The translations under genes were made by a program, and so were the position numbers. A stretch of DNA of 41,541 bases from Parvularia atlantis (lineage: Eukaryota > Opisthokonta > Rotosphaerida), in NCBI GenBank assembly GCA_943704415.1, contig CALSCO010001424.1, positions 1 to 41,541 of the forward strand, given 5' to 3'. The notes under the pieces are model-generated. The model saw only the letters and a program-made list of their open reading frames with translations, did no database searches and was not told the DNA's origin. Shown here piece by piece: positions 9,328 to 38,500 of this stretch (positions within the stretch are counted from its first letter, which is position 1; every line of letters begins with the position of its first letter).

Positions 9328-12300
9328 ATGTCGATCCACAGCTACGTTGTGAGCGCGCAGAAGCCGACGGCGACCAACGTGCGCGCCCGCTGCCGCCACC
9401 GCCGCCACTAGGGCAGCCCACGTGAGCGCGCGCGGCGCAGGCCGCCGTGACGGGCGCGTTCACGGCCGCGGGCGACCGCAACCTGCTGGTCGCCAAGTAC
9501 AACCGGGTCGAGGTGTACGTGATGACGCGCGAGGGCCTGAGCCTCGCGTGCGAGGTGCCGTTCAACGCGCGCATCGCGGCCGTGCACCTGTTCCGCGCGC
9601 AGGTGCGGCGCCGCGCGCTGTTCGGTGCGGGTGACGGCTGATGCCGCGCCATCCCGCCCGCGGCACGCGCAGGGCCAGGACAAGGACTGGCTGCTCGTGT
9701 GCACCGAGCGGCACCAGTTCGCCGTGCTCTCGCACGACCCCGACAAGCGCCAGGTCAAGACGGTGGCCGCGGGCACGGTGCGGCGCGGCGTCCGTGCGGC
9801 GGCGGCCGGCTGCTGACGGCAGTGGCGGTGGCGGCGGCGGCGGCGGCGCGCCCCCCTCAGACCAAGAACGACGTCGGACGCCCCACGCCCGGGGGCCTGC
9901 TCTCCGCCGTTGACCCCGACGGCCGCCTGTTTGTCGTTCACGAGTACGTCGGCATGCTCAAGGTGCGCACGGCAGCGTGGCGGCGCACGTAGACGCTCAG
10001 ACGACGGCGCTCAGGTCGTCCCGATGGACAAGACCGGGCGGCTGCAGGAGGCCTTCACGCTGCGGTGCGGCGCGTCTCCCCGTGTGCGCCCAAATGCTCA
10101 CGCTGCTGCTGCGCGCTGCGCCAGGCTGGACGAGCTCAACGTCGTCGCGATCGACATGCTGCACGGCTGCCCGCGGCCAACGATCGCCGTGCTGTACCAG
10201 GTGTGCAAAGCGCGGGCGGCGTCGGGTAGCGCACGCGACGCTCACCGCCCCGTCGCGCCGCGCAGGACACGAAGGACGAGCGCCACCTGAAGACGTACGA
10301 GTGCTCGGTCGCGGACCGTGCGCTGGTCGAGGGCCCGTGGAAGTTTGACAAGATCACGAGCGACTCGCTGCTCATCCCTGTGCCAAAGCCCGCGGGCGGC
10401 GTCGTCGCAGTGGGCCCGCAGAGCATCACGTACGGCAAGGGCCAGACGAGGCTGTCGATCATGATCACGCCCGGCGAGGTGCGTGCGCACTCGTCCGCGG
10501 TTGCGTCGTCGGTGCTGACCCGCCATGCGCGCAGATCGTCGCGCACGGCATTGTCGACGCAGACGGCCGACGCATCCTCTTGGGTGACAGCAACGGCTCG
10601 CTCAGCGTGCTCACGCTCACGATCGAGAACGGCAACGTGGTCAAGCTCGACCTGGAGAAGCTCGGCACCGTGCGCGCTCGACCTGCCTGCACGCACCCGC
10701 TCACGCATGCGCATGATGAACAGACGTCGCGGCCGTCCTGCCTGTGCTACCTCGCCAACGACGTCGTCTACGTGGGCTCAAACGGGGGCGACTCGCAGCT
10801 GATCAACCTGAGGCAAGGCTCTCAGTGCTCGCGTGCACGCCTTCTTCGCGTTTACCGTGTCGCTTGCACAGGCAAGAGCCTGGCGAGGACGGCAGCAAGG
10901 TGCAGCTGCTTGAGGTGTACACCAACATCGGGCCGATCGTCGACTTTGCCATGATCGACCTCGAGCGCCACGGACAGGCACGCCCGTTGCACGCGACTCG
11001 TCGCTGCTGCTGACGGCGCCTGCAGGGCCAGATGATCACTTGCTCCGGCATCGGCAAGGACGGCTCGCTGCGCGTCGTGCGCAGCGGCGTCGGCATCAAC
11101 GAGGCCGCCTCCATTGAACTGCCCGGCATCAAGGGCATCTGGCCGCTGCGCGCGTCGTCCGCGAACGAGTGTGTCGCCGCACCCGCCGCGTGCAGGCCAG
11201 GGCTCACCGTCGCGCACGCAGTGCCGACTCGATCCTCGCCGTGTCGTTCATCGGCCAGACGCGCTTCCTGGCCTTTGACGGCGATGACCCCGTCGACTCG
11301 GACATCGCCGGCTTCACGACCGAGGAGCAGTCGCTGCTCTGCGCCAACCTGCGCGACGATCTCCTTGTGCGCATCGCATATGGCCGCTGTGTTTGGCCCG
11401 CTGACTCTGTGGCGGTGCACCCAGGTGCAAGTCACGGCCGCGGGCGTGCGCATCGCCGACAGCAAGACACACGCCTCGCTCGACCTCTGGTCGCCGCCCG
11501 GTGCGCGTGCTGGCAATGCACGCGACGGTGTGCGTGGGCTGACGCGCGTTGCCGTGCGCCGCCGCAGCCGGCGTGCAGATCTCGTTTGCGTGCGCGACCG
11601 CGTCGCAGCTGCTGCTGGCGACCACCGGCGGCCACGTCGTGTACCTCGAGGCGCAGAGCAAGCGGCTGCGGGAGATGCGGTGAGACAGCGGCCGCGTGCG
11701 TGCTGCGCGCGGTCGTTATTGACGCGCGCATCGTACAGGACAACAAAGCTGCCATCGGAGATTTCGTGCATGGACGCTGGCCCCGTGGGCGCGGACGGCC
11801 GCGCCGACATCTGCGCGATTGGCCTGTGGGCTGACATGTCTGTGCGGCTGCTGCGCCTGAGCGACTTTCACGAGCTGACGAGCGAGCACATGGGCGGCGG
11901 TGCGCGTCTCAAAGTACAAGCGTGCGGTGCTCATGCGGGCGCGCTCGGCAGACTACATCCCGCGCTCGGTGTCGCTCACGGCGTTCGAGAAGCAGGCGTA
12001 CATGCTCGTCGGCCTGGGTGCGCGCCGCGTGCGCCTTGTCGATGCGACGCGGGCGGCTCATGCGGCCGGCTCATGCGGCCGGCGGACGCAGGCGACGGCC
12101 AGCTGTGCACGTTCCAGGTCGACCCGACGTTGGGCGCGCTGAGCGAGCGGCGCAAGGTGGCGGTCGGGACACAGCCGATCTCACTCAACACGTTCAAGAC
12201 AGCCAAGGTGCGCAAAACAGCGCAAGATGCGTGAAACTCACGCGCTCTCGCAGGCCAAGCACGTCTTTGTGGCCACCGACCGTCCGACAATCGTGCACGA

Positions 12301-14387
12301 GTCCAACGGCAAGCTGCTCTTTGCAAACCTGAACGCCAAGGTGCGCCCGGTGGTGCCGGCAGCGCATGCAATGGCCGCTGCTGAGTGTGCGCGCGTGCAG
12401 GACGTCAACTTTATGGCGCCGTTCAGCTCCGAGGCGTTTGCCGACTCGATCGCGGTCGCCAGCGACTCGGGCCTGACGATCGGTGCGCGCGGGACGGCGA
12501 CAACAGCTGGGGGCTGACGTGCTGCGGGGCGCGCGGCAGGCACGATCGACGGCGTGCAGAAGCTGCATATCCAGACCGTGCCCCTGGGCGAGGAGCCGCG
12601 GCGGATCGCGTACCAGGAGTCGTCGCTGACGCTTGCGGTCGGCACGGTCGCGGTGCGTGCGCGCGTGGGTGCATTTGTGGCGACTGACGTTTCCGTGCCA
12701 GCCTTCCGATAGCACCAGCATGGACAATTCGGAGGTCGGCAGGGTGCGGCTCATCGACAGCCAGACGTTTGAGAGTGCGGCGCAAGCGGCCGACGCACGG
12801 TCGCTGACGCCCACGACGGCGCGCCAGTGCTCGACACGCTCCAGCTGGATGCCGACGAGCACGTCACGTCCGTTATGTCAAAGACGTTTGAGAACGGCGA
12901 CGCGCTGTACATCGTCGGTGCGCGGCCGCCCAGCCTACCGCGCGCAGCGGTTGGGGTCTGACGGCACGGGCGCGCAGGATCGGCGTTTGTGCTGCCGAAC
13001 GAGGACTTCCCGACGCATGGGCGCATCCGTGTGCTGCAGACGAACGAGGCGCGCAAGCTGCGACCCGTTGCGAGCACCGACGTTAAGGGCGCCGTGTACT
13101 CGCTCGCGCCTCTCAGCGGCAACAAGATCGTGGCGGGCATCAACAGCTCGGTGCGCAGGCGTGCTCGCCCAACCTTTGTGCAGGCTCACGTGCCCGCCGC
13201 GGCGCAGGTGGCCGTGTACGACTGGTCGGAGCCGGCGCTGACGCGCGAGTGTGACGTGCACGCTTTCGTGTACGTGCTCGGCGTCAAGACGCGCGGCGGT
13301 GCATGCGCACGTGCGCGGCATGCGCGGCAGTCGGCTGACGGCGCCGCACAGACTTTGTCGTTGCGGGCGATCTTCTCAAGTCCGTGACAATGTACCGCTA
13401 CAAGGCCGAAGACAAGGCGCTGGAGGAGGTGCGCGGCGTCAATGCCTGCTGCGCGCGGCTGAACGCGTCCTCAGATCGGGCGCGACTCGAACCCGGTATG
13501 GACGACGACGTTCGACATCATCGACGACGAGACGTGCGCACATCGCCCCTAGCCGGCTTGGGCCATGAGGCTGACACGTGGCGCGCCGCCAGGATCATCG
13601 TCGCCGACAATGACTACAACCTGTGCACGCTCAAGAAGAACGTCGACTCGATCGCGCCCGAGGAGTCCAACAGGCTCGAAGTGGCCGGGCTGTTCCACTT
13701 TGGCGACCAGATCAACCAGTGCCGCGAGGGTGCACCTGCGGCGGCTCGTCGCGCCTCCCACGGCCGCCTGACGTGCCTGCCGCCGCCCGCCAGGCTCGCT
13801 GGTCATGAAGTCGCTCGAGCAGGACGGGACGCCGACGCCGACGCGCATGTTTGTGACGGTCTCGGGCGCGATCGGCGTGATCGCGTCCGTCTCGCAGGTG
13901 CGCACGGCAAGCGGCGGCGGCTGGTGCTGCAGAACGCTCACGCGCGGCGTCGCTGCAGGAGCGGTACACGTTCTTCAAGCGCGTGCAGGACAACATGTCG
14001 CGCGTGATCCACGGCGTCGGCGGCTTTGAGCACGCGACGTGCGTAGTTGCCGCGTCTCGTCCGTGCGGGGCTCGCGGCTGACGACGAAGGGGCAGCTGGC
14101 GCAATTTCAACAGCGAGTACCGCTCGCCCGACGCCTTCAACTTCCTCGACGGCGACCTGATCGAGCAGTACCTGCTGCTGGACGAGCCGTACAAGGAGGT
14201 GCGCCGCCGCCGCGCGTTGTCTTTGGCTGAGCGTGCGCGCGATTGCCAGGCGGTTGTGACGGGCCGCGCCGTGACGAACGACCACGGCGGGCCGGCCGGC
14301 GAGGGCGCGGCGAAGGGCGGGCAGCCGCTGCCCAAGACGGCGGCGGAGCTGACGCGGGAGATCGACGAGCTCGCGCGGCTGCATTGA
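9328..14387 (+). CDS. DDB1: DNA damage-binding protein 1, CUL4 ubiquitin ligase adaptor
   Basis: A three-propeller adaptor that links substrate receptors to the CUL4 E3 ligase in the nucleus. The N-terminus [17 protein letters not shown] matches MSYNYVVTAQKPTAVN of animal DDB1. Conserved blocks follow in order over about 5 kb and some thirty introns: [212 protein letters not shown], and the tail [12 protein letters not shown]. The helical C-terminus and all propellers are represented, so the gene looks complete. TGA at 14385-14387 lies 65 bp before the GST start. Confidence 0.96.
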
Positions 14388-14452
14388 TGAGCAGTGTGTG
14401 TGTGCTGTCATCAAAAATCCGTGACAGCGCTCGGCGGCTGCTGCTGCTGGAG

Positions 14453-15583
14453 ATGGCCCACGCCCACGACTGCTCCTGCGGCGCCGACTGCGCGTGCCCG
14501 CCCGGCCAGTGCGAGTGCGGTGCGCCGTCGACGTCGCCGCGCGCGGCCGAGACGCACGCCGCCGACTGCGGCTGTGGCGCGGGATGCCGCTGCCCGGCCG
14601 GCCAGTGCCGCTGCCGCGTCGGCCGCGCCATCAAGCTCTACTACTTCGACATCCGGTGCGGCGCGTGCCGTCGTCCCCTCGTCGGCTCGCTCACGTCGCG
14701 CGGCACCACACGGGCAGGGGCCTCGCCGAGGCCGCGCGGCTGCTCCTCGCCGCCGCCAAGGTGCCGTACGAGGACGTGCGCCTCGCGTCGGCCGACGAGC
14801 TCAAGCAGAGCGGCAAGCTCGCCTACGACCAGGCGCGGCGCCCGCTCGCCTGCGGGGATCCCCGCGCCGGCCGTGCTGACGACGGCAAACGACGCGCAGC
14901 TGCCGCTGCTCGAGTACGACGGCCACCTCATCGTCCAGAGCCAGGCCATCTATCGCTTCCTGGCGCGGCAGTACGGTGCGCACCGCGGGTGCTGGGCGAT
15001 GCGGGTGCTCAGCCGCGCCGCCGCCCCTCACAGGCTTCTACGGCAAGAACGCGATCGAGGCCGCGCACATCGACCAGGTCATCGAGGTGCGGCTCGGCGC
15101 GAGCCCAGCGACGCAGGGCACATACCGCAACGACGCGCGCAGGGCTTCAACGACATCCGCGCCAAGTTCGGCCCGATCCGCAGCATGCCCGACGGCGACG
15201 CCAAGAACGAGGCCAAGACCGCGTTTGAGCGCGAGATGCTGGCCATCTGGCTCGGGTGCGAGCGCGAGACGGCGTGAGCCGGCGCAGCCGTGCTCACCCC
15301 GCGTGCACGCAGCCACCTCGACAAGCTCCTGCTCAAGAACAAGAACGGCACGTCGTTCTTCGTCGGCGACCGGGTGCGACCATCCTCGGCTCGCTCGCAG
15401 CACTCTGAGCGCAACGCGCGCCGCACGCAGCTCTCGCTCGCCGACATCTACACGTTCAACGTGCTCGACTCGTTCAAGGACTTCTTCCCGAGCATGCCCA
15501 GCTACGCGCCGAACTTGCAGAAGCTCGCCGAGCGCGTGGCCGAGCAGCCGGGCGTGAGGGAGTGGCTGGCCGTGCGCGGGTGA
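14453..15583 (+). CDS. Metallothionein-like domain fused to a sigma-type glutathione S-transferase
   Basis: The first 54 residues after ATG at 14453 hold twelve Cys in two copies of CxCx3CxCx4CxC (Cys 7,9,13,15,20,22 and 39,41,45,47,52,54), linked by a Ser/Ala/Glu/His spacer. This is a metallothionein-like thiolate pattern. The GST starts at IKLYYFDIR (residues 60-68, catalytic Tyr expected at 64) in the same exon and continues GLAEAARLLLAAAKVPYEDV, LPLLEYDGHLIVQSQAIYRF (glutathione-site SQ), GFYGKNAIEAAHIDQVIE, and the C-terminal helices LSLADIYTFNVLDSFKDFF. The order and size fit sigma or prostaglandin-D-synthase-like GSTs. One intron (14833-14899) uses a GC donor. An in-frame ATG at 14387, overlapping the DDB1 stop, could add 22 residues. 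Joint metal binding and thiol detoxification is inference. Confidence 0.9.
14833..14899 (+). other. GC-AG intron in the GST gene
   Basis: The exon ending KLAYDQ and the exon starting LPLLEYDG lie in different frames. Removing 67 nt that begin GCGCGG and end GCGCAG joins them in frame at the expected GST position. No GT lies near the exon end; the only nearby one would leave a 27-nt intron. CTGAC sits about 20 nt before the acceptor. Confidence 0.82.
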
Positions 15584-15648
15584 CGGGCGCGGGGTGACGG
15601 GCGCGGCTGTGTCGGCTGCATGATGTGCGCAATGGCAATGCTCGCTCA

Positions 15649-18322
15649 TCAGTACTCGTTGGCCATGTGCTCGGCCAGCTCCTCCGCGGTCATCACTCGC
15701 CTGCACGCGAGCAGTAAGTGTTGCACGCGGAGCCTGCGCAGGCGGCGCACCGGACGACTTCTGAGGCCGCAGCCGCGACCGTCTGGCGTGTTGGTGCGGC
15801 CTGGGTCTGCGCTGCCACCTGCGTTTGCGCGGCTTGCATCTGCACGGTCTGTGTCACCGCGGCCTGTGTTTGAACCACGGCGGCTTGCGCCACTGGGGCT
15901 TGCGTCTGCGTCTGTGCCACGGCGGCTTGCGTCTGCGTCTGCGCCACGGTAGCGGCTTGCGTCTGCACGGCGGCCGGCTGGGCCGCTTGAATCTGCGCAC
16001 CCACCTGAGCTGCCTGGGTTTGCACCGCTACCTGGGCCACCTGGGCCGCTTTGGGTGGAGCCAGCGTGGCTGCCTGCAGCGAGGGCAGGCGGCTCGGCTG
16101 CATGGGCGGCTCAACAAGGCCCTCCACCCGCGCGCACGGGCGGGCGCAGAGCGTGTGCCAGGGCTGCGCGGCGCGCGTGAGCAGCTCGCGCGCACACTGA
16201 GCAGCGGCTCAGGCCCACCTTGGCCTTCACGTTCAGGTACGCGTGCTTGGGCGACTCCTTGTAGATGGCCTCGTTGATCGGTGCGCCACACGTGGCCGTC
16301 GCCGCGCACTCGTACGACCACGGCGCGTTGGTGTCGTGCTCGCGCAGATCCTTGTACCGCGCCATGAAGATCTGCAGCGCAAAGCTGTACAGCTCCTGCG
16401 GTGCGCGTGCGCGCATCAGCAACGCCGCCCAGCACGGCCGCATGCCGCACCTGATCGAGCCGGTTGTGCTGCCGGATCAGCTCGACCTCGGCTGCCGTCG
16501 GCGTGATGGTCGTGCGCACGATCGTCGTGATCTGCCCGCGCGCGCGCAGAGCAGAGCACTCAGCAGGCGAGCCAGCGCGGGCGGGGCGCACGTACGCACC
16601 TCGTCAAACTTGTCAAACGGCACACGCAGCACCTTGTTGAGCATCAGGAACGACTTTTCGACCTCCTCGGCGATGCCGACAAAGTGCATGCGCCGCAGCG
16701 CCTCCTTGGCCGACTCGAGCACCGTCTGAGCGCCCGGGTGAGCACGCAGCGCGTCGGCACAAGCGGGGCGCACCTGCCCAAACTCGTCCGACGTCAGCAC
16801 GGGGTCGTTAAGCTCGAGGCCGGGCGCCACGCCGATCGTGTACGTCTGGCGGTTGTTTGGCGACTCTGCGCCGGCCGCGCGGCGTGAGCGCTGCGCTGGG
16901 ACGGGGCGCGGCCACCCTGAGCCACGCACTCGACGAGTGCTTGTGCAGGACGTACTCGAGCAGTGACATGGTGCCGTTGGCCATGCGCAGCTTGAGCTCG
17001 AGGTCCTCGCAGTTGGAGTGGTTGCAGTCGAACGACGGTGCGCCCGAGGCTGTGGTGGGCTCGATCACGCGCTTGAGGCCCGCCTCGTACTCTGCGTGCA
17101 TGCGCGTCAGCCGGCGGCACAGGCGCGTCAACGACCGAACGACGCACCGGCCAGCACGCGCGTCACGGGATCGCGCAGGATCGTCCCGAACGCGTGGCAC
17201 GTGAGCCCCCGCGCGCGCTGCGCCTGGCCGTCAGCAGCGTGCACGACGCACGGCGCGCCGCCGCACCGTCTTATGGTACTCCTCCAGCAGCGACATGAGC
17301 GAGCGGTGGCCCGCCGGCGGGATGACGCGCACGTCGGACACACGTCGGAGGATGTTCTCGCACGTGCGGCCGTTGGCTGCGTGCGCGTGCCGCGTTGGTG
17401 AGCCTGGGCCTGAAGAGTGCGCACGTCGCGCCACGCACCCTCCTGCGGCTGCGCAAACCAGAAGTGCAGCGGGTCCGTCGTGCCGCTGCACTGCATGGGC
17501 GCCGGCAGCTTGTCGAAGGGCGTGGCGAGGGCCGGCATCAGGTCCGGCACGGGCTTGGCCTGCACCGCGCGCGCGCACGGAGGGGGCCATCAGCACGGTG
17601 CATCGACGTGCGCGCGGAAGGCCCGCACCTTGGGCACGGTCGCGGCAGGAGGTGATACGGTCGCGACGACGACGGCCGCCGCCGGCTGCTGCTGCTCGTT
17701 GCGCATCGCCCGCGCCGCATCGCGCTCGGCCTCCTCTTGCGCAAGCGCCCGCAGCCGCTCCGCGCCGTCGGGCCCGTCGTACGGGTTCGCGCCGTTCTGC
17801 CGCCGTGCCGCGCGTCACGCACATCATTCAACGCGACAGACGTACCCGCGACCCGCCCGTCTCGACTGCCGCGCCGGCCGCGCCGCCCGCCACCGCTAGC
17901 AGATCCACGTCCCTGCGCTGCCACGGCGCCCCCGCCGCGCCGTCCGCCTTGCCCGCGCCGTCGGGCTGCGCGCCGCCCGTGTCGCCGCGTGGCACGTTGT
18001 TGTCCCCGCTCGCGCTCGCACCCGTGAGCACCGGGAGGAGCGGATCCAGCGTGCCCGTGACGGCGCCCGCGGCCCCCTGCGCACGGCGGCGGCCGTGCCC
18101 GTGGCGGCCCGGGCGCAGGACGGCGAGCACGAGGTACGACAGGGTCGCGACCACGAGGACGAAGCCGACCATGCGCACGACGGGCGAGCGCGCGAGGCGG
18201 ATGCGGAGGCTGCGCAGCGTCGTGCCCAGGTCGCCCGGGCCACTGCCCGCGCCCCCACCGCCGAGCGTGCTGCCGACGCTGACGGGGCGCTTGCGGCCGG
18301 CCGCGGGCGTCGCGCCGAGCAT
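15649..18322 (-). CDS. Type II membrane sulfotransferase (HS2ST-like family), Golgi
   Basis: A carbohydrate sulfotransferase-like protein. ATG at 18322 (MLGATPAAGRKRPVS) precedes a single transmembrane anchor, MVGFVLVVATLSYLVLAVL, at about residues 50-70, then a Gly/Ala-rich stem, the layout of Golgi type II enzymes. Luminal blocks are DPLHFWFAQPQE, RTCENILRRVSDVRVIPP, TILRDPVTRVLAEYEAGLKR (the 3'-phosphate-binding R-D-P-V-x-R motif), LLEYVLHKH, NNRQTYTIGV, and MHFVGIAEEVEKSFLMLNKV. These match the family in order. The canonical PKTGG-type 5' loop with its Lys is not obvious at the expected place, where my splice gives PQEANGRT. The C-terminal region is a long Gln/Thr/Ala/Val repeat ending MTAEELAEHMANEY. 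Convergent with the GST gene (65 bp). Confidence 0.78.
15850..16060 (-). repeat. Gln/Thr/Ala/Val coding repeats in the sulfotransferase tail
   Basis: Imperfect short units encode QTQAA, VAQTQTQA and similar peptides over about 70 residues. The DNA shows recurring GCTTGCGTCTGCG-type hexamer-rich blocks on the plus strand. The tail is probably disordered. Confidence 0.8.
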
Positions 18323-18383
18323 TTGCGCGACGAGGAAACGTGGGACCGCTTGAAACACATGTCGCGCTCCACGTTTCACTTTT

Positions 18384-20652
18384 CAGCGTGCGGGCGCCGT
18401 GGCCGGCCCGGACGACGCCAGGCGCGCGCGCCGCTGCGTCTCCAGCAGGCGCAGGTACTGCCAGCGGGCGGGCGACAGACCGGACTCGCCAAAGCTGAGC
18501 GCGGCGAGGCTGGCGGCGCGGGTGAGCACGTGCCGCACGCAGAATGAGGGCGCGCACCGCGCCATCGTCAAGCGCAGGTACAGGTCCTGCTGCGTCATCT
18601 TGGGCTCGTGGTTGGCCGCGGCCTGCTGGCGCTGGCTCACAAAGTCGTCCTCGACAAACTGCGCGCGGGGCGGCCAAGTGTCGGCTCGTGCACCACGGCA
18701 CACGTGGCCGCACCTTGCTCACGTCCTCCTCGATCGCGTACGGCGCCTGGCGCGCCACGGCAAGGTACAGCCGCGCGCGGTCGAAAAAGTCGGGCGCGGG
18801 CAGCATCATCGCCTCGGAGGGCAGGGGCACGTGCGACTGCAGCGGCACCACGCAGTCGACCTGCGCGCGCACAGTTGAGGGGGAGACGATGCGAGCGGCG
18901 CGCGGCCAGCGCACCGGCATCATAGAGCGACCCTCGGAGAGCACGATGGCCGGCGCGTCTAGCTCAAACTCGAGCGCCTGGAAGGGGATGTCGTACGTGA
19001 CCGTCTGTGCCTCGATCACCTGCCGCACGGCCTGGATATTGATCAGGCCGAGCGCCTCGAGCTTGCCCTCGTGCAGCGCCGTCTCGTCCACGAGCATGTG
19101 CGTGCCGTTGCTCAGCTGCAGCGCCGTGGCCTGCAGGCGGCCGAGGTTGGCGTCGCGCGAGGGCTGCAGCTGCGCGCGTAAGAACGTCAGCAAACGATGC
19201 ATGCAGTAGGCCCGCGTCGGCCCACCCGGCTGCCGTTGAGGAACGTGAGCGAGAGCGGGAGCACGCAGCTCTTGGGCACGAGCGCCGACACAGCCGCGTG
19301 CAGCGACGCGCCAAAGGGGCTGCAGCCTGCTCGGCACGCCGTCAGGGCGAGGCGCGGCGACGCCTGCCAGCGCAAGACGCACGCGACGCGCTGCTGGGCG
19401 CGGCGGCGGGTGCGCGCGGACAGCCCGCGAGGTTGAGGCTGAGGCGGCCCAGATGCGTCACGTCCACGCGCTTGTACCTGACCGTGCCGCGCGTTGAGAC
19501 CACGCCACGTGCACACGCTCGCGGGAGGACGCACACGTTCGAGAGCAGGTTGAGCAGCATGAACTCGGCCGCGAGCAGGTCGCCGCCGAGCACGGACGCG
19601 AGGTACTGCACGACCATGGGGCGCACGAGCGTGGCCTGCGCGAGCGTCTGCTGGGCGACCACTGCGCGCGAGTGCAGCGATGAGCCGTTGCGCACACAGC
19701 GGCTACAAGTCGCGCGGCGCGCACGTGGCTGGTCAGCCCAGGGGTTCTCGGTCGGCAGGAGCGGGTTGTTGTGGCCAAGGCGCGCAAACGCGATGCTGTG
19801 CACGCGCGGGATGAGCGCGGACGGGTGGCCGGCCATGAACTCGCGCAGCAGCAGCTCCTGCATGGACGCGACGCTGCGAGCGCGTGAGATGCCCCGGTGT
19901 GCAGCGTGCGCGGCCGGCGACGCACTCGTTCGGCACGGCGTGGCTGCTGCTGCCACCGAGCGAGCCGCCGTCGAACGTGAGCACGCCGAAAAACTCGACG
20001 ACCTCGTTCAGCTTGAGGCCGTGCGCGCCGTGGTACACCTGGTGCGCCCCGCCGCGCATCAGCTGCCGGGGCCGAGCCGCGCAGCACACGGCGCACGCGC
20101 CTTGACGACGCAGTTGGGCTGCGTGGTGCTCGAGAGCGGGTGCCGCAGATCGCCCTGATGGCCAACGGCGGCCATCGTCATCGTCGTCGCTGCACCGTCG
20201 CTCTGCTGCCGCGAGCGCTTCGAGGCGGACGACGGCGCGTCGTCTGCGCGCGCGCACGGTTGTCAGCGATGTGCCGCCGGTCTCGGGTGGGCGCGGAGGC
20301 CGCACCGGTCTCCATCTCCGCTGCCTCGTCGCCGTCGCCGTCGCCGTCGCCATCGACGTCGACGGGGCGCTTGCCGCTGGCCGGCGCGGCGCCGTCGAGC
20401 CCGGGGACGGGCGGGTGCTGCGCCGCGAAGCCCGCGGCGGCCCAGGGCGTCTCGGCCGGGACGGGCACGCAGTAGAGCACGTGGCGCTCGTGGGTCGCCG
20501 TGTGCGGCGAGTCGTCCCTCACGGCGCCCTGTGCAAACGTCACGCCTCACGGCCACTGGAGGCGCGTCGTGTGTCGCGCGCACCTCGGCCGCGTCCTGGT
20601 ACAGCCCGCAGACGACCTGCGCCGCCGCCGCCGTGAGCCGCCGCGCACCGCG

Positions 20653-21136: not shown

Positions 21137-23226
21137 TCAGTTGAACTTCTTGAAGTCGCTCTCGCCCGAGCGCGACACGGCCACGTAAACGACGATGCTG
21201 ATGACCAGCACGCCGATGACGATGAGCAGCCCGATCGTGAGCGGCGTGAACACGCTCGCGTCCGCGTCAGCCGCCGCCGCCGCGCCTTTTGTTGCCGCGC
21301 TCCCCTGCACTAGCTGCATGATCGCGCGCACGTCGGCCTGGATCCGCCGGATGTCGTTGAGCTGGGCCTGGACGTGGTTCTGCGGCGTGTGCGCATGAGC
21401 CGCTGTTGCCGTGAGCTGCACGGCGCCGCGCACCTCGATAGTCTGCAGCCGCACGTCGTTCACGGCGGCACCGCCGGCGCCACCTTGCGACGGCCCGCCG
21501 CTCTCCATCAGCCGCTTGATGGCGGCGTCCACCTCGCCCAGCTTGGCCGTCAGGCGCTGCTGCTCCTCCAGCACCTTGTTGATCTGCGGCAGCCCGGCAA
21601 AGTTGAGCCCGGCCGGCCCGGCGCCCGGCACGCTCGGCGCGGCCCGTGCGGTCGCCTGGAGCTGCTGCGCAAAGTCGCGCTGCAGGGCGATGAGCGCGTC
21701 GATCTTGACCATGACGGCGTCCTGCGGCAAGCGCTCGCGCCCGTGAGCGCCCGTCCGCACAGGGCACCGCAGCGCCGCCGCACAAAGTTTGGCACGAACG
21801 ACGAGTACGCCGCCTCGCCCGCGCTGCCGACGCCGCCCGACTGCGCCTGCTCCTCCTTCACGCGCATTTCCTGGCGACACATGCAGAGCGCGAGCGTTAG
21901 GCTTGCGCGGCAGCGGCCATGCCGTAGCGCTCGCGGCCGCACCTGCACTTTGTGCTGCACCGTGTCCAGCTTGGCCTGCTGCTCGGTCGACACGGCGGCC
22001 TGCTCGATCGACGGCGCGTCCTTCTCGGCCGCACCGTACAGCCGCGTGACCTCGAACGAGAAGATGTCGTGATCGTCTGCGCGCACGCTGAGCACGCGGA
22101 CACGGCGCACAAGCGAGGCACGCGCACCCGCCAGCCCGCCCGTCGCCGCCGACACGCCGAAGAAGTAGCCCTGCGGCAGCTTCAGGTTCTCAAGCTGGAA
22201 GCAGTGCGTGTAGGCCTTGCCCGACTCTGACGTGTCGACGCTGATCTGCACATGCACCGCCCGGCCGTGAGACGCCGCGCCAAGTGACGACAGCGACGGC
22301 AGCGCACCGAGAGCGTGCTGTCGAGGTAGTCGATGCGCACGGCTGTCGGCTTGGACGGGTTGCGGAAGTGGCGCTCACACGACGCCGCGGCCTGGCCCGA
22401 GCCGTCGGCGTTGTGGTTGAACGAGACCTGGCCGTCGTTGACGATGGCGAGCACGGTCGGGTTGTTGTTCTGCGCGGCACGTGAGCGATCGGCGGCGGCG
22501 ATCATCGACGCAGCCGCAATCAGCACCTGCCCGTCGTTGTCGTATGTGTCGAAGATGACGCCCAGGCCGTCCCACCGATCCTTGCTGCCGTAGACGCCGC
22601 CGATCTGCTGCGACTCCTTCGTGTACCAGAACGCGATGCCGTCGCCGCCGAGGCGTCCCCTGCGCCGCCCCGGGCCGTGGTAAGTGTCACGTGCGGTCAT
22701 CCATGTGGCGCACCGGCCCGAGATGAGGAACTTGATCTCGATCGACCAGTTGCTGAAGTCGGTCGGCAGCGTGGACCAGACGGCGCCGCGCTGGCTGCGC
22801 ACGCTCGCGGCGAGGCGGATGTAGTCGGTCGAGAGGATCACGTCTTTTCGAGTGGCGGCGCGCAAGGGGATCAGTGGCGACGACCGCGGGAGCGAACGGC
22901 GGCCGAAGCGCGACGCACCGCCCACGACGGCAAAGTGCGGCAGCTTTTGCTCGCCGTCGACCGTCGGGAGGAAGTAGGGCTTCTTGAACGAGCGCCGGTA
23001 GTCGTACTTGCCAGGCACGACCACGGGCTTCTCTACCGCGCGACCACGCGGCACACGTGCGCGAGACGGCCGCGTCAGCGCCGCACGCGCGCGCGCCGAC
23101 CGCACAGACGCGGCGGTGTCACGCACGCATCACGGTCCCCTGCGCGTGCACGAGCGCGCCCGCCAGCAGCAGCAGCAGCGACGCCGCGCCGCCGAGGCCG
23201 CCGCGCAGCATCGACGCGCCCGCCAT
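21137..23226 (-). CDS. LMAN1: ERGIC-53-like L-type lectin cargo receptor
   Basis: A mannose-binding cargo receptor cycling between ER and Golgi. ATG at 23226 starts a signal peptide with core [19 protein letters not shown]. An intron joins it to [20 protein letters not shown]. The legume-lectin fold follows: [101 protein letters not shown] and [15 protein letters not shown]. The Asp/Asn residues of the Ca2+ and sugar site are present. A coiled-coil stalk follows, then one transmembrane segment ([20 protein letters not shown]) and the cytosolic tail SDFKKFN. KKFN fits the KKxx retrieval signal and resembles KKFF of animal ERGIC-53. An upstream in-frame ATG at 23265 is possible but would bury the signal peptide. 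Confidence 0.92.
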
Positions 23227-28800: not shown

Positions 28801-31800
28801 TCTCGCAGCCGTCGCCGCAGTCGCCCAGCGCGGCAGCGACGCCGTCGGGCGCGTTCCTCACGCGCTCCTCGACCACGGGCGCAGGGCCAGCGCCGTCGCC
28901 AAAGACGGCCGAGGGGTGCGCGGGCGCGGGCGGCCACCTCACACCGGTTCTGACACGCACACGATCGCCACACAGGCACAGCCGCATCGTGCGCGTCGAG
29001 AGCATGCCCACGCCGACCAAGGGCACAATGAAGCGCGACCCCGCGTCGTCACCCGTCGTCATGCGTGCGTGCCTGCACGATCAGCGCCGTGCGCCAGGTG
29101 CTGATCCGTGCGGCAGAGGGCGAGGCTGCCGTGCCGCTGCTGTGGAAGGACACGGTCGACGTGGTCGTCTACGAGTCGCTGTCGGAGAAGGAGCGCAAGC
29201 GGCAGGAGGTTGCGTGGGCGCCGTACTCGGCGCGCGTGCGTGCTGAGCGCGCCTCGCAGGTCATCTACGAGCTCATCCGCACCGAGAAGGACTACTTGAA
29301 GGACATCAACTTTGTGATCGAGGTGCGCGCCCGTGCTGTCCGCTGCGTTCGGCTGACACACGGCGAGCGCAGAACTTCCTCAAGCCGCTGCAGAACAAGA
29401 AGATCCTCTCGCAGATCGAGATCAAGTCGCTCTTCTCCAACATCGAGCAGCTGGTGCCAGTCAACTTTGAGCTGCACAAGGGTGCGTACATTGTGTTGTG
29501 CTGACGAGCCGCGCCAGCTGACGCGACCGCGGACGCAGAGCTCGGGCACAAGCAAAAGGCTGGGCCCGTGGTCGAGACCGTTGGCGACTGCTTCCTCAAG
29601 ACGGTTCGCGGGCGTGCTGAGCGCTCGTGAGCCGTCACCCTCAAACACGGGCGCGGGCGAGCAGAAAGACTACTTCAAGATGTACAAGCCGTACTGCCGC
29701 AACCACCCGTACTCGGTGATCGCGTATCAGAAGATCCGCAACGGCAAGTACTCGAAGCCGTTCAGGAGATTCGAGGAGGTGCGCGGGGGCCTGCGGTGCT
29801 TCGCGCGGGGCGCCGCTGACGCACTTCGCCGTGCCCGCGCGCTGTCTGCAGGAGATGTTCAAGCGGCCCGAGTGCCGCCTGATGGAGCTGCCGTCGTTCC
29901 TGCTCAAGCCCGTGCAGAGAATATGCAAGTACCCGCTGCTTCTCAAGGTGCGCCCGAGCGCACGCACTGGCAGCCGCTCACCCCTTCGCGCGTGCTGCAG
30001 GAGATCCTCAAGTACACGGAGCCAACGCACCCGGACTACACGCAGCTGCAGAAGGCGTACCAGGTGTTTGAGGAGCTGGTCGCGGTGGTGCGCTTGCGTG
30101 CTTGCTGTCGCGCGGACGTCGCGCGCCTCACCCGCGACGCGTCGCGTCGCACACAGGTGAACGAGGACGCGCGCCAGGGCCAGAACGAGCGCACGATTGT
30201 CGAGCTGCAGAAGCGCTTCCCAGACGTGCGTGCCCCTTACCCCCTCGCCGACACGCGTTGTGTGCCCGTGGCGGGCGGGGCTCACACGCCGAACGCCAGA
30301 AAATGGAGAGGCTCGTCACGCCAACGCGCGTGTTCCTGCTCGAGGCCAACGTCAACACGCTCGAGGTGGAGGCCGGCAAGGTGCGTGCGCGCTCCGCCCC
30401 AGCGGTGAAGGGGCGTGGCCTGAGCAGCCCCGGCGCAGCGCAACGCGGGCGAACCGCGCATCATGTTCCTGTTCAGTGACATCCTCATCCTGGCCAAGCC
30501 AACGGAGAAGACGCCGGAGAAGGTTCGGGGCGCGGGCGCACGCGCCGCGGGCTGCGGCTGAGCGACTGTGCCGTCGCAGGTGGAGCCACTGGCCAAGTAC
30601 AGCATCGACGAGATCGCGTGCCGAAACGTGCCCAGGAGCGACGGTGCCGTGTCTGCTCACGTGCCGCCCTCGTGTTGCTGATGCGAGATGATGCGGCCGC
30701 CAGACACGCTGCAGCTTGTGCACGTGCCGCGCGCGATCGCCGGCGCTACGCCGTGGACGATGCAAGGCTACATGAACGTGATGCTCGTGGCCAAGGACTC
30801 GAGCTACCGCGACACGTGCGTGTGCAGCGCCGTACGATGCGCGCACGCGGGCTGACCGTCGCGCGCTGACCGCAGCATCGTCAACATGGTCGAGCGGGCG
30901 CGGCAGAAGTACATCGAAGACCAGCAGACGATCTGTGCGCCGCGAGAGATGGCGCGCGCTCGCACGCAGACGCTGACACGGGCGGTGCAGCACCGGTCGA
31001 GGAGCCGCCTGCACGCGTGTCGACCGAGGTGCGCACGTCCAGCGATGGGCCACCGTCGGCCGGGAGCCCAGTCGCCGCGTGCGTCTGGTTGCCCCGTCTG
31101 GCCGCTGCAGCACGTGCGCTGACTGCAGTGCCACAGGTCGCCCGCCGAGCCGCCGAGTACCGCCGGGCCGCGCGAGGTCATGCTGCCGCGCAACATCCAG
31201 CTGCCAAGCCCGCTTGGTGCGCACCCTTCGCTGCTGCTGCGACACACGCGCTGATCGGCTGGGCGCACCGCAGGCGAGGTGATCCAGTGCCACGTGACTG
31301 ACGTTGTGCGCCGCGGCGGCCTCACGTCGCGCTTCAAGCGCTTCTCTTCGACGCAGGGCCTTGTGCGCGGCCTCTTGGCTGGGCTCGCGGCGGGCTGACA
31401 CGGCGCGCGCGCGCAGCTGTACATGGTGACGGTGCAGCGCAAGCCCGAGAATCAGCCGTTCAACCACGAGGTGTACAAGGTGCGTGGCGTGCCGCCGGCG
31501 GCCGTGCGCGTGCACGCGTGAGGCTCACGTCGGCGGCGACGCCATCAGGGCATCGACGACTTTATCGAGCTGCACATCTTCATGATGAAGAAGACGCTGC
31601 CGCTGATCAAGGACGAGGCTGAGCGCAAGAAGCTGCCCGATATGCCGCCGAGCCGGATGGTGCGTGGGCGCTGGCGCGGGTGTGCGGCATCACTCACGCG
31701 CGGCGCTGCAGCTCACGACCGAGGCCGTGATGAAGCAGGCGGTCGCGGAGCTCGAGACGTTCATGCAGGTGCGCACCTGTGGCGTGGTGCATGCGCGCGG

Positions 31801-32173: not shown

Positions 32174-33569
32174 TCACGCGGCAGGCCGGCCGGCGATGCG
32201 CTGGCCGGCGCGGAGCGTTGCTTGGACGTCGGCTGGCGTGATGCGCGAGACGATGGCGGCGACGACGTCACGCGACCAGCGCAGGTGTGGCTGGTCAAAG
32301 TCAAACACGACGAGGTCGGCCGGCGCACCCTCCGTCTGCGCGCGGTGTAAGCGGGCTCCGGTGCGGGCGAACGGCACGCGAACGCACAATGCCAAAGGGC
32401 GCGTCGCGGTCGAGCTGGTCGCTGTGGACAAAGCGGCGGAGGAGGCGCGCGCCGTTGATCGAGGCCATGCGGAGGATGTCGCGCGGGGCGACGTCGAGGC
32501 CGCCATGGGCGCGCGCGACGCGGAAGGCGGCGTCCATCTCGGCGAGCATGTTGGGCGCGTTGAGCATGACGTTGTCGGTGCCGAGGAGGAGCGGGACGCG
32601 CGCGCGCAGCAGCGCGGCGATGGGCGGCAGTGGCAGGCCGAGGCCGCCGTTGGCGCGTGGGCAGACGACGGCGGGGCGGCCGCTGCGCGCAAGCAAGTCG
32701 ATCTCGTGGGACGACGCGGCGCTGAGGTGCACGAGCAGCTCGGCGTCGTACAGGTCGCTGTCGAGCGCCCGCTCGATATCGCCGCGGCCGCTGTGGCGCA
32801 CGCTGTTGGTGCGGTACGCGTCGCTCTCGAGGCAGTGCACGGCGCGCAGCGGGCGGCGGCGCGGCGCTTGCTCGAGCGTGAGGCGCCGGAGCGTGCGCCA
32901 GGCCGGGTCGGTGAGGTCGGCGATGGTGCTCTCGGAGACGCCGTCGGGTGCGCCGCTGTCGATCTCGTCGTCGTCGTCCGCGCTCAGCAGGCGCCGCACA
33001 TCGGCCACGACGGGCGGCGGCAGGTCGGCGGCGTTGGCGCACAGCGCCGGCTCGTCGAAGGGCACGGCGGGCAGCTGCGAGCACACGACGGCGCGCACGC
33101 CCGGGGCCGCCGCCCGCTCGGCCGCGCGCATCGCCCGCACGCCGGCCGCGCCCAGCTCGGTGAAGTCGCACGTCGCGACGGCGCCGCAGCGCGCCATGAA
33201 GCGCAGCGCGTCGGCCGCCGCGCGCTCGAGCGTCGCTGGCGCGGCGGCCGCGAGGGCGCGGTACTTGAGCCCAGCCGGGCGGAACACGGCGGCCTCGAGC
33301 GAGAGGCCCGTCGCGGCGTCGGCGAGGAAGGCGTCGAGCGTGTGCGTGTGCGCGTTGTACAGCGCCGGCACGACGACGGAGGCCGCCGCCGCCGCGTCTG
33401 CATCGAGCTCGGCGAGGCCCGTCAGCGGCCGCACGCGGTCGATGCGCGTGATCAGGCCCGATGAACTGTCCCACTCCAGTCGCGTGCACAGCGTCGGCAC
33501 CAGCTCCTCGCCGAGCACGGCCACGCACGGGCCGAGCGACGTCGCGCTCGGCGATGCGGCCGCGGGCAT
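32174..33569 (-). CDS. Amidohydrolase / aminohydrolase family enzyme
   Basis: A metal-dependent deaminase or hydrolase of the amidohydrolase superfamily, of the kind that includes guanine, S-adenosylhomocysteine and cytosine deaminases. From ATG at 33569 (MPAAASPSATSLGPC) one long exon carries VVVPALYNAHTHTLDAFLAD (HxH metal motif), CGAVATCDFTELG, LRAVHCLE, ELLVHLSAASSHEIDLLARS (metal His region), AVVCPRANGGLGLPLPPI, and VPLLLGTDNVMLNAPNMLAE (catalytic/metal Asp). A single intron near the 3' end joins RDAPFGI to TEGAPADLVVFDFDQ, ending GQRIAGRPAA. The substrate cannot be told. With one intron in about 1.4 kb it is far less interrupted than its neighbours, which may suggest later acquisition. 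An upstream in-frame start at 33665 is possible but overlaps the OSBP 3' end. Confidence 0.85.
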
Positions 33570-33648
33570 TCGCAGACACGCACTGTTCACACAGCAGACA
33601 AGGAGGAGCGACTCACACCGCGCGCACGCGCAACTGACGGCCGGCCGA

Positions 33649-35454
33649 TCACGCGGTGAGCGCACTGCGCATGACCGTCAGCCAGCCCTGTGCCTTGGCC
33701 GGGTTCGTGAAGGCGTCTGGGCGCATGTTCCTGCATCCGGCCCAGGCGACGTCAGAAGCGTGCATTGCTAGTGTGCGGGACGCACCACTCCTGCCCGTCC
33801 TCGCTCTTCGCAAAGTACAACGGCGTGTGCTTGAGCGTGCCCTTCTCGACCTCCTCGAGGTACTTGCGCTGCACGCGGGCGACGGCGGCGTGTGAGCTCA
33901 CGCGCGGCAGCGGTGCGTGCAGTCGAGCGCACCTGCATCGCCTCGATCTGGTTCTTGGCCTTGTCGGCATCCTTGAAGTTCTTGTTGGTGATGTGCTTCC
34001 ACACCTCCTCCCACACGCTGCGTGCGCGCGCAGGTGAGCAGCAGGCGTCACGCACGCTCGGGCAACGCACGCGGTTGCGAGCATGTCGCCAGCCTCGTCG
34101 CGCGTCGACGCCTTGTACGGCACGGTCGCAATGTTGGAGTCAAACAGGACCGACTCCTCCTGCGCAAGGGCGTGAGCACGGCCGGGCGCAGGCAGCGCGC
34201 CGCACCTTGGTAGCGGCGTGGGTGATGTACACGACGTCGTCCCAGTAGCCCTTGATCGTGTGCGTCTGGTCGCCCTTGGGTGTCTGCACAAAGCCCTCGA
34301 CCTTGCGGTACTTGCCGAAGAACCACGGCTTGGGCTTGAAATAGATCTCGCACAGGAAGCCCGTCTTGGGGCAGTTGATGACCATCGTGCCGTTGTAGTC
34401 GATGAAAGACTTGCCCCAGAGGATGCCGCGGAGGTACCACGTCTGCGCGCGCGCACGCGCGTTGGTGCGCTGCGGTCGCGAAGAGCGGTCGCGCGGCGTA
34501 CCGGCATCGTCACAAGGTACTGCTCGTCGTGCTCGCCGACGGTGAGGACAAACGGCGTCTTCTGCATCTTCATCTTGAGCGCTGCCGCGCCAAAGGGGTG
34601 AGCACGGCCCGCGGCACCGCAGCCGGCGCGCACCGACGCCCGTGAAGGAGCCCTCGGGCGACATGATCGCCTGGTAGCGTAGCTTGCGCGCCGTGTTCTC
34701 GTAGCTGAACGCACCGATGGGCGGGTGGTGCTCGAGCTGCTCCGCGACGAACCGGATGGCTGTCGGCGCCACGTCAGCCGAGCGCACGCGGGAGACCGGC
34801 GGCCGCGCGCACTCTCCGCGTCCGAGCTCGCCGGGTACACGCCCGAGTAGGTCTCGCCAATGACCGGGTTGAAAGGCTTCTTGCGCGAGAGCTGGGCGGG
34901 CGCGGTGTGAGCGGGACGGGCGAAGCGCAGCGCGCTCACCTTGTCGTTCTGGGTCATCGACAGCATGAGGCGCGCGACGGCGATCATGCGGGCCTCGGGC
35001 GACTTTTCGTCGGCGATCCTGCAGCGCGCAGCGGTGAGCGGTATGCGCGCGCGCGCACGGGCGGGCCACGCGCACTGGTTGAAGAGCGCCGGCTGGGTGA
35101 GCGCGACGAAGCGCATCACGGTCGAGTCCGTGTCGTGGATGAAGGCGGGCGCGCTGAAGCGCCTGCGATCGCGCGCGCACAACGCCGTGTCAGCCGCGTC
35201 GCTCCCGCGTCACCGTTGTGGGGCCGCGCACATGGCGTCGAGGTCCTTCACGCCGACCATCGACCGCACGAGCTTGCTCATCTCGGTCAGCTGGCCCGCG
35301 TCTAGGTCCATCTTGGCCTTGTCGCCGAGGTCGTCCTTGGCCTCGCCGGGCGGGGCGTCTGGCGGCGGCGCGCGCGCGTGTCAGCCGAGCACGCCCCGGC
35401 ACGGCGAACAGCCGCGCCTCCACCGTCGACCTCGGGTTCACGCGCGAGCGGCAT
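33649..35454 (-). CDS. Oxysterol-binding protein-related protein, short (no PH domain)
   Basis: A lipid-transfer protein of the OSBP/Osh family that moves sterol or PI4P between membranes. ATG at 35454 (MPLAREPEVDGGG) splices to DLDAGQLTEMSKLVRSMVG, MRFSAPAFIHDTDSTVMRFV, SRKKPFNPVIGETYSGVYPA, RFVAEQLEHHPPIGAFSYEN (the family fingerprint, usually EQVSHHPP; both PI4P-binding His are kept), LRGILWGKSFIDYNGTMVIN, EIYFKPKPWFFGKYRKVEGF, TIKGYWDDVVYI, KHITNKNFKDADKAKNQIEA, and a last exon NMRPDAFTNPAKAQGWLTVM. There is no PH, ankyrin or FFAT segment, so it is of the Osh4/Kes1 type. It has about eight short introns and is divergent with the TRIM-NHL gene. Confidence 0.93.
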
Positions 35455-35550
35455 TACACGTGGAGCCGATCGGCGAACAGAACAGATGATCGCGGTCACG
35501 CTACTCGGCCCGGCTAAACCCGGCTAAACCAAATTACCCCGCACGACCCC
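35455..35550. promoter_or_regulatory. Divergent promoter interval OSBP / TRIM-NHL
   Basis: 96 bp separate the two ATGs. It is less GC-rich than coding flanks and contains the tandem decamer described at 35511-35530, followed by AAATTACCCCG just before the TRIM ATG. Confidence 0.5.
35511..35530 (+). repeat. Tandem decamer CGGCTAAACC x2
   Basis: Two exact adjacent copies of CGGCTAAACC, 21 bp before the TRIM-NHL start codon. The TAAACC core resembles telomere-like promoter boxes of other eukaryotes, but two copies are too few to call it telomeric. Confidence 0.8.
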
Positions 35551-38500
35551 ATGACGCTCGCGGCGGCGCGCGCGCGCGAGGGCCGCGTGCTCGAGTGCCC
35601 CGTCTGCGACGACGAGTTCCGCGGCGGCACGGCGCGCCTGCTGCCGTGCCTGCACACCGTCTGCCGCCTGTGCGAGCGCGACCTGCTCGAGCACGGCCCG
35701 CGCGGCGTCTGCCCTGTCTGCCGCGAGCCCTTTGCCGACGGCGACGTGCTGCCCAGCTACCTCGTCGAGGCCGCGCTGGCGGCGCGCGCGGCCGGCCAGG
35801 ACGACGACGGCGGTGCGGACGGCGCGGGTGGCGCGGGCAGCAGCGGCGCGACGGCGCCGGGCGGCAGCAGCGGCAGCAGCGGCATCAGCGTCGCCCGCCC
35901 AGTTCCCGGCACACGCCCGCCCGACGCCGAGGCCTCGGCCGACTCGGTCGCGGCGTCGTCACCGTACTACACCTTTGGCGGGCCGCCGAGCCCGCCGGCC
36001 GCGGGCGCCGCCGTCGCGTCGGCGTCGTCGGCGTCATGGCGCATGCGTCTGCACCAATGGCCCGCGCCCCTCCCCACCGCCGTCTGCGCTGAGCACCCGC
36101 GCCTGACCGTGACGATGTACTGCGAGCAGTGCGAGCGCGCGGTCTGCCCGCAGTGCTTCGCGGGCGGCTCGGTGGCGGCGCACAAGGGCCACCCGCTGCT
36201 CGAGCTGGACGCGGCCGCCGCCGTGCTGGCCAAGGCGCTCGAGGGCGAGGCGGACGTGCTCGCGGCGCTGCTGCAGCGCCTCGCGGCCGCGATCGCAGCG
36301 CTCGACTTGTGCGTGGCCGATGTACGTCAGCGCGAGCGCGACCTGCGCGAGGAGGTCACCGAGGCCTACGAGGACGTTGCCGCGAAGCTGCGCACGCACA
36401 TCGACGACGTGCAGCAGCGCCTCCTGAGCGAGCAGGACGACGAGCCCGGCTCGCCCGACGCGGCGTCGTCGAGCGCGGGCACGGGCGGTACCAGCCAAGC
36501 GCGGCTGCCGGCCCTGCTCAGCGGGCTGCAGCGCCTGCTGTCGTCACTCTTTAGCTTTGCGTCGCCCTCGTCCAGCACCACTGCCGCGCCCGCAACGCCG
36601 GGCCCTGCCGCGGCGAGTAGCGTGGCCGCGACCGCGCAGGCCATCGCCGCCGTGGGCCGCCGTCTCACTGGCATGCAGCCCCCGCAACAGCCGCAGCAAC
36701 AACAGCAGCAGCAGCCGCACCAGCAGCAGGCGGGCCCCGCGCAGGCCGCGCAGATGCCGCTGCCACCGCTGCCGGGTCGCGGCCTGACGCGGCCAGACAG
36801 CCGCAACGACCTGCGCCGGTACGGCGGGGCCGGGCGCATGTTTAGCGACAGCGACTCGGAGCGCAACAGCGCGGACCAGCTGAGCGTTCTCAGCCGGCAC
36901 CAGATCTTTGGCGGCGGCGAGGACTTTCGTGCTGACGCGGGCGTGGGCGACACGCCGCGCGACAGCGGCTCGGAGGTCGACGACGAGGCGTCTGTCAACG
37001 GCGACGGCGACAGCACGGCGAGCAACGACGGCGACGACGACGCGGGCCCGACGATGCGCAGCGGGCGGCGGCGCGTGCCTGTGGCATGGGCGAGCGTGGG
37101 CACGGCAACACGACCGGGGGCAGCCACGAGCAGCAGAGGCGGCGGGTATGACGGGAAGGCGCGGTCGGCGTCGCTCGACCTGTCGCGGCCGCGGACGCGC
37201 AGCCGCGCTGAGTCGATCAGCACGGTGCTGAGCGAGCTGCAGCGGCGCGTGTACCAGCTGGGCGGGCGGCGTGACGCGGTGCTGGCGGACGCGCACACGG
37301 CGCTGGACGCCGACATCAAGACGCTCGTGCTGCAGCGCGACGAGCTCGAGCTGTGCCGCGACAAGATGGCCAACGCGCTCGAGCAGGCACGTCGACTGCT
37401 CGACTGCTCGTACCCGGTCTCGCACGGGGCGCGGATCGCGGCGCGCAAGGTCGCGCTCACGTTCATCCGGCGCATGGCGCGCGCGTACCCACTCGAAACG
37501 CCGCTCGTGCTCGACAACCTGCGCTTCTGTCGCCCGCCGCCGTTTTCCGCGACCGACTCGCTGCGCGTGCCGCTGCAGCGCATGGGCAAGCTGTACCGCG
37601 AGCGCGACTTTGCGGCGATCGATGCGCCTGTGGCCGTGATCGACCTGCGCGCGGCGGGGCTGACGCGGCCGGGCGGCGTCGCGGTTACGCTCGCGGGCGA
37701 CTTGCTCGTGGTGACAGGCCAGCGCGACCTCGTGGACGAGGACGGGCAGCACACGGACGGCGGCGGGTGCGCGGTGGCGGTGGACCTCGAGGGCCGGCGC
37801 ACGCACATGTTTGAGGGCCTGACGCGGCCGGCCGGCGTGGACATCTTGCTGAGCGGGGAGATCTGCGTGGCCGACCGCGAGACGAGCACACTGCGCGTCT
37901 ACGCGTTGGCCAAGCGCGCGCCAAACGGGGCCGAGGCCGCGCCCGTGACCGCGCCCGTGCGCACGATCGCGTGCCAGAGCCCCGTCGGCGTAGCGAGTGT
38001 CGTGACGGGCGAGATCGTGGCGACGCTCTCGGACGCGCACGTGCAGCTGTTCAGCGCCGACGGCCGCGAGCGGTGGACGTCGTCGGTGCGTGCGCCCCCT
38101 TGCGCGCGTGCCTCTGCTGACATGTGCGGCAGGGCGACGGCTCCGAGCACGTCTTCTACGGCACGCACATCGGCGGCGTCGCCTACTCACCCGCGACCGG
38201 CGAGCTCGTGATGGCTGACGCGGCCAACTCACGGCTCAAGGTGCTCTCGGCCGCGACGGGCTCGTTCATCCGCTACATCGCGCCGGGCCAGCTCGACTGG
38301 CCGATTGGGGTCGCGTGCACGCCGAGGTGCGCGCCGGCCGCGCTGGCGGGCGTGCAAGCGGGTGACTGACGCGGGCGCGGCGCCGGCAGCGGGCACGTCG
38401 TCGTGAGCGAGACGTTCGGCAGCCGCGTGTCGGTATGGACGATGCGGGGCGAGCGCGTCGCGTTTTGGGGCACAAAGGGCGACCAGCCGGGCCAGTTCAA

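Follow-up and report, generated by a model that had tools for sequence, protein, structure and literature searches.

The locus raises the question of whether the frame that starts at the ATG at 14453-14455 encodes a glutathione S-transferase (GST) carrying a metal-binding head of its own, and whether the two parts might work together. Thiolate-based metal buffering and glutathione chemistry usually reside in separate proteins that meet via free GSH/GSSG, and a protein joining them would, if real, make it possible to test directly for a role of glutathione enzymes in loading or unloading metal-thiolate clusters. Our analysis covered the whole stretch of 41,541 bases (hereafter the window). We consider it fairly probable (roughly 60%) that a single eukaryotic gene specifies a Tyr-type GST of the sigma/alpha group preceded by a 58-residue head, whose two metal-thiolate modules would provide buffering beside the glutathione site.

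Exon 1, read from the ATG at 14453 to 14655, translates as MAHAHDCSCGADCACPPGQCECGAPSTSPRAAETHAADCGCGAGCRCPAGQCRCRVGRAIKLYYFDI(R) and contains two exact fits to the spacing CxCx3CxCx4CxC, namely CSCGADCACPPGQCEC at 14471-14518 and CGCGAGCRCPAGQCRC at 14567-14614. The two start 96 nt, i.e. 32 codons, apart, and a search of the whole window in six frames returned no third match. Nor did the spacing arise in any of 300 Markov simulations (150 first-order, 150 second-order), which serve as a control for composition only, as coding constraint was not kept. The earlier note had described two perfect copies 32 residues apart. This holds for the Cys spacing and the distance, but not for the sequence: the 20-residue units HAHDCSCGADCACPPGQCEC and HAADCGCGAGCRCPAGQCRC are identical at 14 of 20 positions and differ at 6, while retaining all six Cys and sharing a leading H-A-x-D-C. 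Two of the codon differences between the units are synonymous and six non-synonymous, and the sole change in a Cys codon is among the synonymous ones; the corresponding dN of 0.28 against a dS of 0.40 is, over just 20 codons, a weak figure that proves little. Cys density as such is unremarkable in this GC-rich window (about 70% GC overall; 0.67-0.74 in 2-kb blocks), since Cys-rich frames also occur elsewhere. The densest of them, on the minus strand at 36785, has 16 Cys per 50 residues, and for the most part they consist of runs such as CCCCCCC, without the CxCx3CxCx4CxC spacing.

From the Cys repeats, the frame remains open into IKLYYFDIR. The fusion thus lies within a single exon with no intron in between, as had been proposed, and the only amendment concerns the end of that exon, which our splice model places at 14655, one base before the 14656 given previously. 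Third-position GC content (GC3) indicates that the head is coding. In frame, the first half of the head has a GC3 of 0.97 and the second one of 0.93 (55 of 58 codons overall), and at the GST start all 8 codons end in G or C; in each stretch, the value exceeds the GC3 of both alternative frames. The frame-specific GC3 of the head is as high as that of the GST part, and the same check gave no sign of a frame-breaking error between the Cys-rich part and IKLYYFDIR. Directly upstream of the ATG, GC3 is 15/22 codons, as compared to 55/58 in the head (Fisher p 0.0035). An in-frame ATG further upstream, at 14387 (MSSVCVL...), opens this 22-codon stretch and overlaps the stop codon of the neighbouring gene; we judged it to be untranslated and rejected it as the start. 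Besides, the first Met after M1 in the spliced predicted protein is M164, so that a headless GST could not be made from a later in-frame AUG.

What follows the head is confirmed as a GST. The predicted protein belongs to the cytosolic GST superfamily, with both domains above the curated Pfam cut-offs: GST_N (PF02798) scores 46.7 bits against a cut-off of 20.9 (E 4.1e-12) and GST_C_3 (PF14497) 70.1 bits against 21.6 (E 2.1e-19). The match to Tyr-type GSTs of the sigma/alpha group spans its residues 60-256. In a phmmer search of the PDB, 142 distinct solved sequences matched at E 0.001 or better, led by 4q5f (Glutathione S-transferase 1), which we take to be a nematode sigma-like enzyme, with 114 bits, E 9.6e-32 and 38% identity over the aligned segment. 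The GST identity that had been assigned to the part after the Cys repeats is thereby borne out. The label "sigma-type" is plausible given this best match, yet alpha-class chains are near: among the best 60 of the 142 matches they reach up to 97 bits, as against 114 for 4q5f and 81 for 1gsq.

An alignment of four rows (the predicted protein and three solved comparators) shows Y64, the Tyr of KLxYF at the end of strand 1 and presumably the catalytic one, to be invariant in 4/4 rows, as are K61, L62, F65, R68, G69, Q106-L107-P108, Q119-S120, D145 and D153, among others. In the stretch of exon 2 that precedes the QLP motif, E95 (14797-14799, +) and S99 (14809-14811, +) replace a Trp and a Lys present in 3/3 comparators, two residues which we assume to contact GSH in this GST group. 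The replacement suggests that the glutathione site is altered, and GST catalysis may be weak or changed; because of these two substitutions, ordinary transferase activity should not be assumed.

We then consider whether the head has relatives. Our scans were seeded by short exact peptide patterns or tblastn, which for a short Cys-rich stretch reach close relatives only. Within this range, the scan with exon 1 gave 28 pattern stretches in viral contigs and 562 in prokaryotic genome contigs, none of which was confirmed as a relative. Viral contigs likewise contained no relative of the whole protein (6 pattern stretches) or of the GST alignment (52), phages none of the whole protein, and the head alone had no match in plasmids at E 10. 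The whole protein did match 10 plasmid records, all from residue 60 or later and hence through the GST part only. Among 58 pattern stretches from prokaryotic genomes, the GST alignment identified 21 loci with 22 strand matches (one locus having two). Each of the 22 has a Met 3-6 residues ahead of its strand and lacks CxC in the same-frame residues upstream, of which up to 60 were covered; 15 of the 22 offer fewer than 60 such residues, nearly always owing to a stop codon. The head is absent at 20 of the 21 loci; the remaining one (L016) is cut by the contig end, with only 5 residues between that end and the strand, and was left out of the verdict. Another locus (L021), for which a match to query residues 6-222 had been reported, was examined as a second fusion and discarded: there is a stop near the start of the matched frame, no CxC in the 60 residues before the GST strand, and a Met 4 residues before the strand.

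As no head relative was found in these viral, prokaryotic, plasmid and phage sequences, conservation across species lends no support to a function of the head. The same result would suit the most probable alternative, namely that the GST has a passive or species-specific extension at its N-terminus and that this head would bind some metal in vitro owing to its Cys-richness while having no selected role. N-terminal extensions of GSTs do exist, as evident from 1m0u (GST2 gene product, PDB), a chain of 249 residues well inside which the GST part aligns, and insect sigma GSTs, with their non-Cys N-terminal extension, offer a model. However, the duplicated motif keeps all six Cys and the HAxDC lead in both copies, and the frame-specific GC3 of the head is as high as that of the GST part. 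We therefore regard this alternative as unlikely.

If the head has a role, the next point is what kind of module it represents. High Cys content in CxC motifs, a trait of metallothioneins (MTs), is found here as well (12 Cys, alongside 3 His, and six CxC pairs per 58 residues). The other trait, that of a small free protein, is not, as the head frame runs on into the GST. All 12 Cys of the predicted protein fall into the head and none into the 199-residue GST part; the latter is not special in this regard, since the three comparator GST segments have 1, 0 and 4 Cys. Searched on its own against Pfam and NCBIfam, the head had 0 family matches at E 1. The whole protein scored 15.2 bits against Metallothio_2 (Pfam), below the cut-off of 23 (E 0.042), and the sole PDB match to the head at E 10 was wheat Ec-1, with a non-significant E of 3.3. 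"Metallothionein-like", the term the earlier note had used, is thus apt for Cys spacing and density and not for family membership, no metallothionein model of Pfam or NCBIfam reaching its cut-off. Judged by these Pfam, NCBIfam and PDB comparisons, the head falls outside the MT families described so far, although it may work like a thionein. Either way, the combination of a Cys-rich head and a GST is confirmed, at the level of the predicted protein, as a real and unusual architecture. In agreement with the previous remark that this domain pair is unfamiliar from standard GST classes, neither a natural metallothionein-GST fusion nor a thionein-like head on a Tyr-type GST appears among the matches listed, in excerpt, from open-access literature on metallothioneins, GST fusions and Cys-rich GSTs.

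The same cysteines could also serve a structural purpose. The head would then bind zinc structurally or mediate interactions with partner proteins or nucleic acid, instead of buffering metal, and the GST would act as a dimeric scaffold or ligand binder. In favour of this, E95 and S99 stand close to the glutathione site in place of the Trp and Lys that the comparators have, and excerpts of a study on wheat Ec-1 mention that certain yeast transcription factors also hold Zn2Cys6 clusters (PMC4813231). However, the head is rich in CxC and in Gly/Ala/Pro, has almost no hydrophobic core residues and so appears more thionein- than finger-like, and the families it fails to match at E 1 include Pfam models of any kind. 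This makes a structural module quite improbable to us.

The complete gene model predicts a protein of 257 residues from seven exons, ending at 15583, with six introns of 56-67 nt, of which five would be GT-AG and one GC-AG (Table 1). The splice junctions were picked by frame continuity and GST similarity. A GC donor is credible in a GC-rich protist, given that GC-AG accounts for 56% of 241 junctions in the hand-curated set from Emiliania huxleyi, according to the accessible portion of that report (PMC4028052). Short introns and one predicted GC-AG donor out of six, in DNA of about 70% GC, bear some likeness to haptophytes, but the higher GC-AG share in E. huxleyi leaves this as no more than a hint. 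That the fusion is an artefact of the model, which was built from DNA alone, and that the Cys-rich part is in truth a separate small thionein gene or a portion of the exon skipped in the mature GST transcript, for which AG acceptors exist within the head (e.g. CGGCCAG followed by TGC, in both copies), is highly improbable, as the head and GST start share a single exon with no stop and no internal Met, and the 65 nt upstream are too short for an exon plus an intron of 56-67 nt unless these overlapped the neighbouring gene.

Table 1. Coordinates of the predicted head-GST gene and its upstream gap within the window.
Feature	Position	Strand	Basis or remark
65-nt gap from the neighbour's stop (14385-14387) to the GST ATG	14388..14452	+	GC 0.585
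Exon 1: Cys-rich head and first GST strand	14453..14655	+	Residues 1-67 and two bases of codon 68; open frame, ATG, GC3
Repeat 1, HAHDCSCGADCACPPGQCEC, six Cys	14459..14518	+	Core motif starts 14471
Cys-free 12-residue inter-repeat linker, GAPSTSPRAAET	14519..14554	+	Direct reading
Repeat 2, HAADCGCGAGCRCPAGQCRC, six Cys	14555..14614	+	Core motif starts 14567
Intron 1, GT-AG, splits the Arg68 codon	14656-14717	+	Predicted splice model
Exon 2: GST N-terminal (thioredoxin-like) domain	14718..14832	+	Predicted splice model, alignment
Intron 2, predicted GC-AG; splicing would join ...AYDQ to LPLLEYDG	14833..14899	+	QLPLLE match to GSTs
Exon 3: LP and QS motif region, GST N-domain	14900..14975	+	Splice model, alignment
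Exon 4	15034..15086	+	Splice model
Exon 5: GST C-terminal domain	15143..15255	+	Splice model, Pfam
Exon 6: GST C-terminal domain	15313..15373	+	Splice model, Pfam
Exon 7 and stop codon: end of GST C-terminal domain	15431..15583	+	Splice model, Pfam

As for the surroundings of the gene, a DDB1/CPSF1-type gene with short introns (11014-14387, +) lies upstream, its end separated from the GST ATG by 65 nt. Three pieces of this gene were tested and two have Pfam matches, Beta-prop_RSE1_2nd at 11014-12231 and CPSF_A at 13339-14004, and its last piece (14082-14384) has none. The gap between the two genes is overlapped by an AT-rich patch at 14387-14426, the sole one with a GC content of 0.45 or less per 30 nt from 12895 to 19179, and may represent a promoter or 5' UTR. 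Just past the GST gene, the opposite strand contains a repetitive open frame rich in Gln/Ala/Thr/Val (15696-16208, -; VAQTQTQAA-like repeats). The window has 263 frames of at least 110 aa, and a sample of 10 was examined for domain matches. Those elsewhere in the window include a single open frame of 897 residues that resembles a TRIM-NHL protein in its matches to RING, B-box and NHL (35518-38208, +), a Legume-like (L-type) lectin domain (22185-23129, -; E 3.6e-40), and matches to RhoGEF (29032-30405, +), amidohydrolase (32304-33677, -) and a GATA zinc finger (40036-41505, +). Rfam returned 0 matches in the 41,541 bases.

Returning to the reading we prefer, a GST with two metal-thiolate modules, the head would consist of two duplicated His-plus-six-Cys modules separated by a Cys-free and presumably flexible linker. 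In the reducing cytosol, each six-Cys module would fold round a metal-thiolate cluster, predicted to be of the M(II)2Cys6 type for Zn or Cd, or else a small Cu(I)-thiolate cluster. A single chain is predicted to carry about 4 divalent ions in this way, and a GST dimer about 8. For the gamma-domain of wheat Ec-1, the available excerpts describe that six Cys suffice for an M(II)2Cys6 cluster and that its Zn can be replaced by Cu(I) (PMC4813231). Loaded in this manner, the head could buffer metal and soft electrophiles beside the glutathione site, where GSH/GSSG might be able to load or strip the head thiolates. Zinc transfer from metallothionein is controlled by GSH/GSSG, with GSH stabilising the protein and GSSG promoting release (PMC3634463, as excerpted), and a thionein module beside a glutathione site would therefore make chemical sense. 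Whether head and GST are functionally coupled in a direct way, as opposed to merely being co-localised, is nevertheless the least certain element of our proposal. In its strongest form, which we consider doubtful at this stage, the protein would be a natural thionein-GST in which the two metal-thiolate modules and the glutathione site of one dimer act as a unit. Soft metals or electrophiles would be captured by the head, and the GST domain would supply glutathione to strip, reduce or hand on this cargo as glutathione complexes. E95 and S99, in the altered loop, would then be the mark of a glutathione site that has changed.

How does such a protein compare with known systems? Sigma-like GSTs (best chain 4q5f) likewise comprise GST N- and C-terminal domains, a presumed catalytic Tyr and the QLP and QS motifs; in contrast, the matched segments of the three comparators start at the first strand and retain the Trp and Lys. 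A thiol-based N-terminal head on an enzyme is known from mercuric reductase, in which the metal bound by the head is taken over by the thiol/redox enzyme attached to it, yet both the enzyme and the fold of the head are different ones. For diatoms, dinoflagellates and haptophytes, a 2020 review, as excerpted, reports that predictions of MTs had been limited to a single dinoflagellate and a single diatom (PMC7216689); were the host an alga of this kind, a thionein-like module in a GC-rich protist would help to close that gap. In the moss Physcomitrella patens and the lycophyte Selaginella moellendorffii, hemerythrin GSTs (GSTH) also combine a GST and a metal-binding domain in one chain. According to the excerpted description, they differ in being Cys-type GSTs, about 510 residues long, that carry the hemerythrin domain at the C-terminus, and the word "metallothionein" has 0 occurrences in that paper (PMC4138524). 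Finally, wheat Ec-1, a plant MT (PDB 2kak, gamma-domain), is described in excerpts as having Cys-rich regions parted by Cys-free linkers, much as in the head (PMC4813231), with which it forms a weak local alignment; in contrast to the head, Ec-1 is a free-standing, unfused protein of 81 residues.
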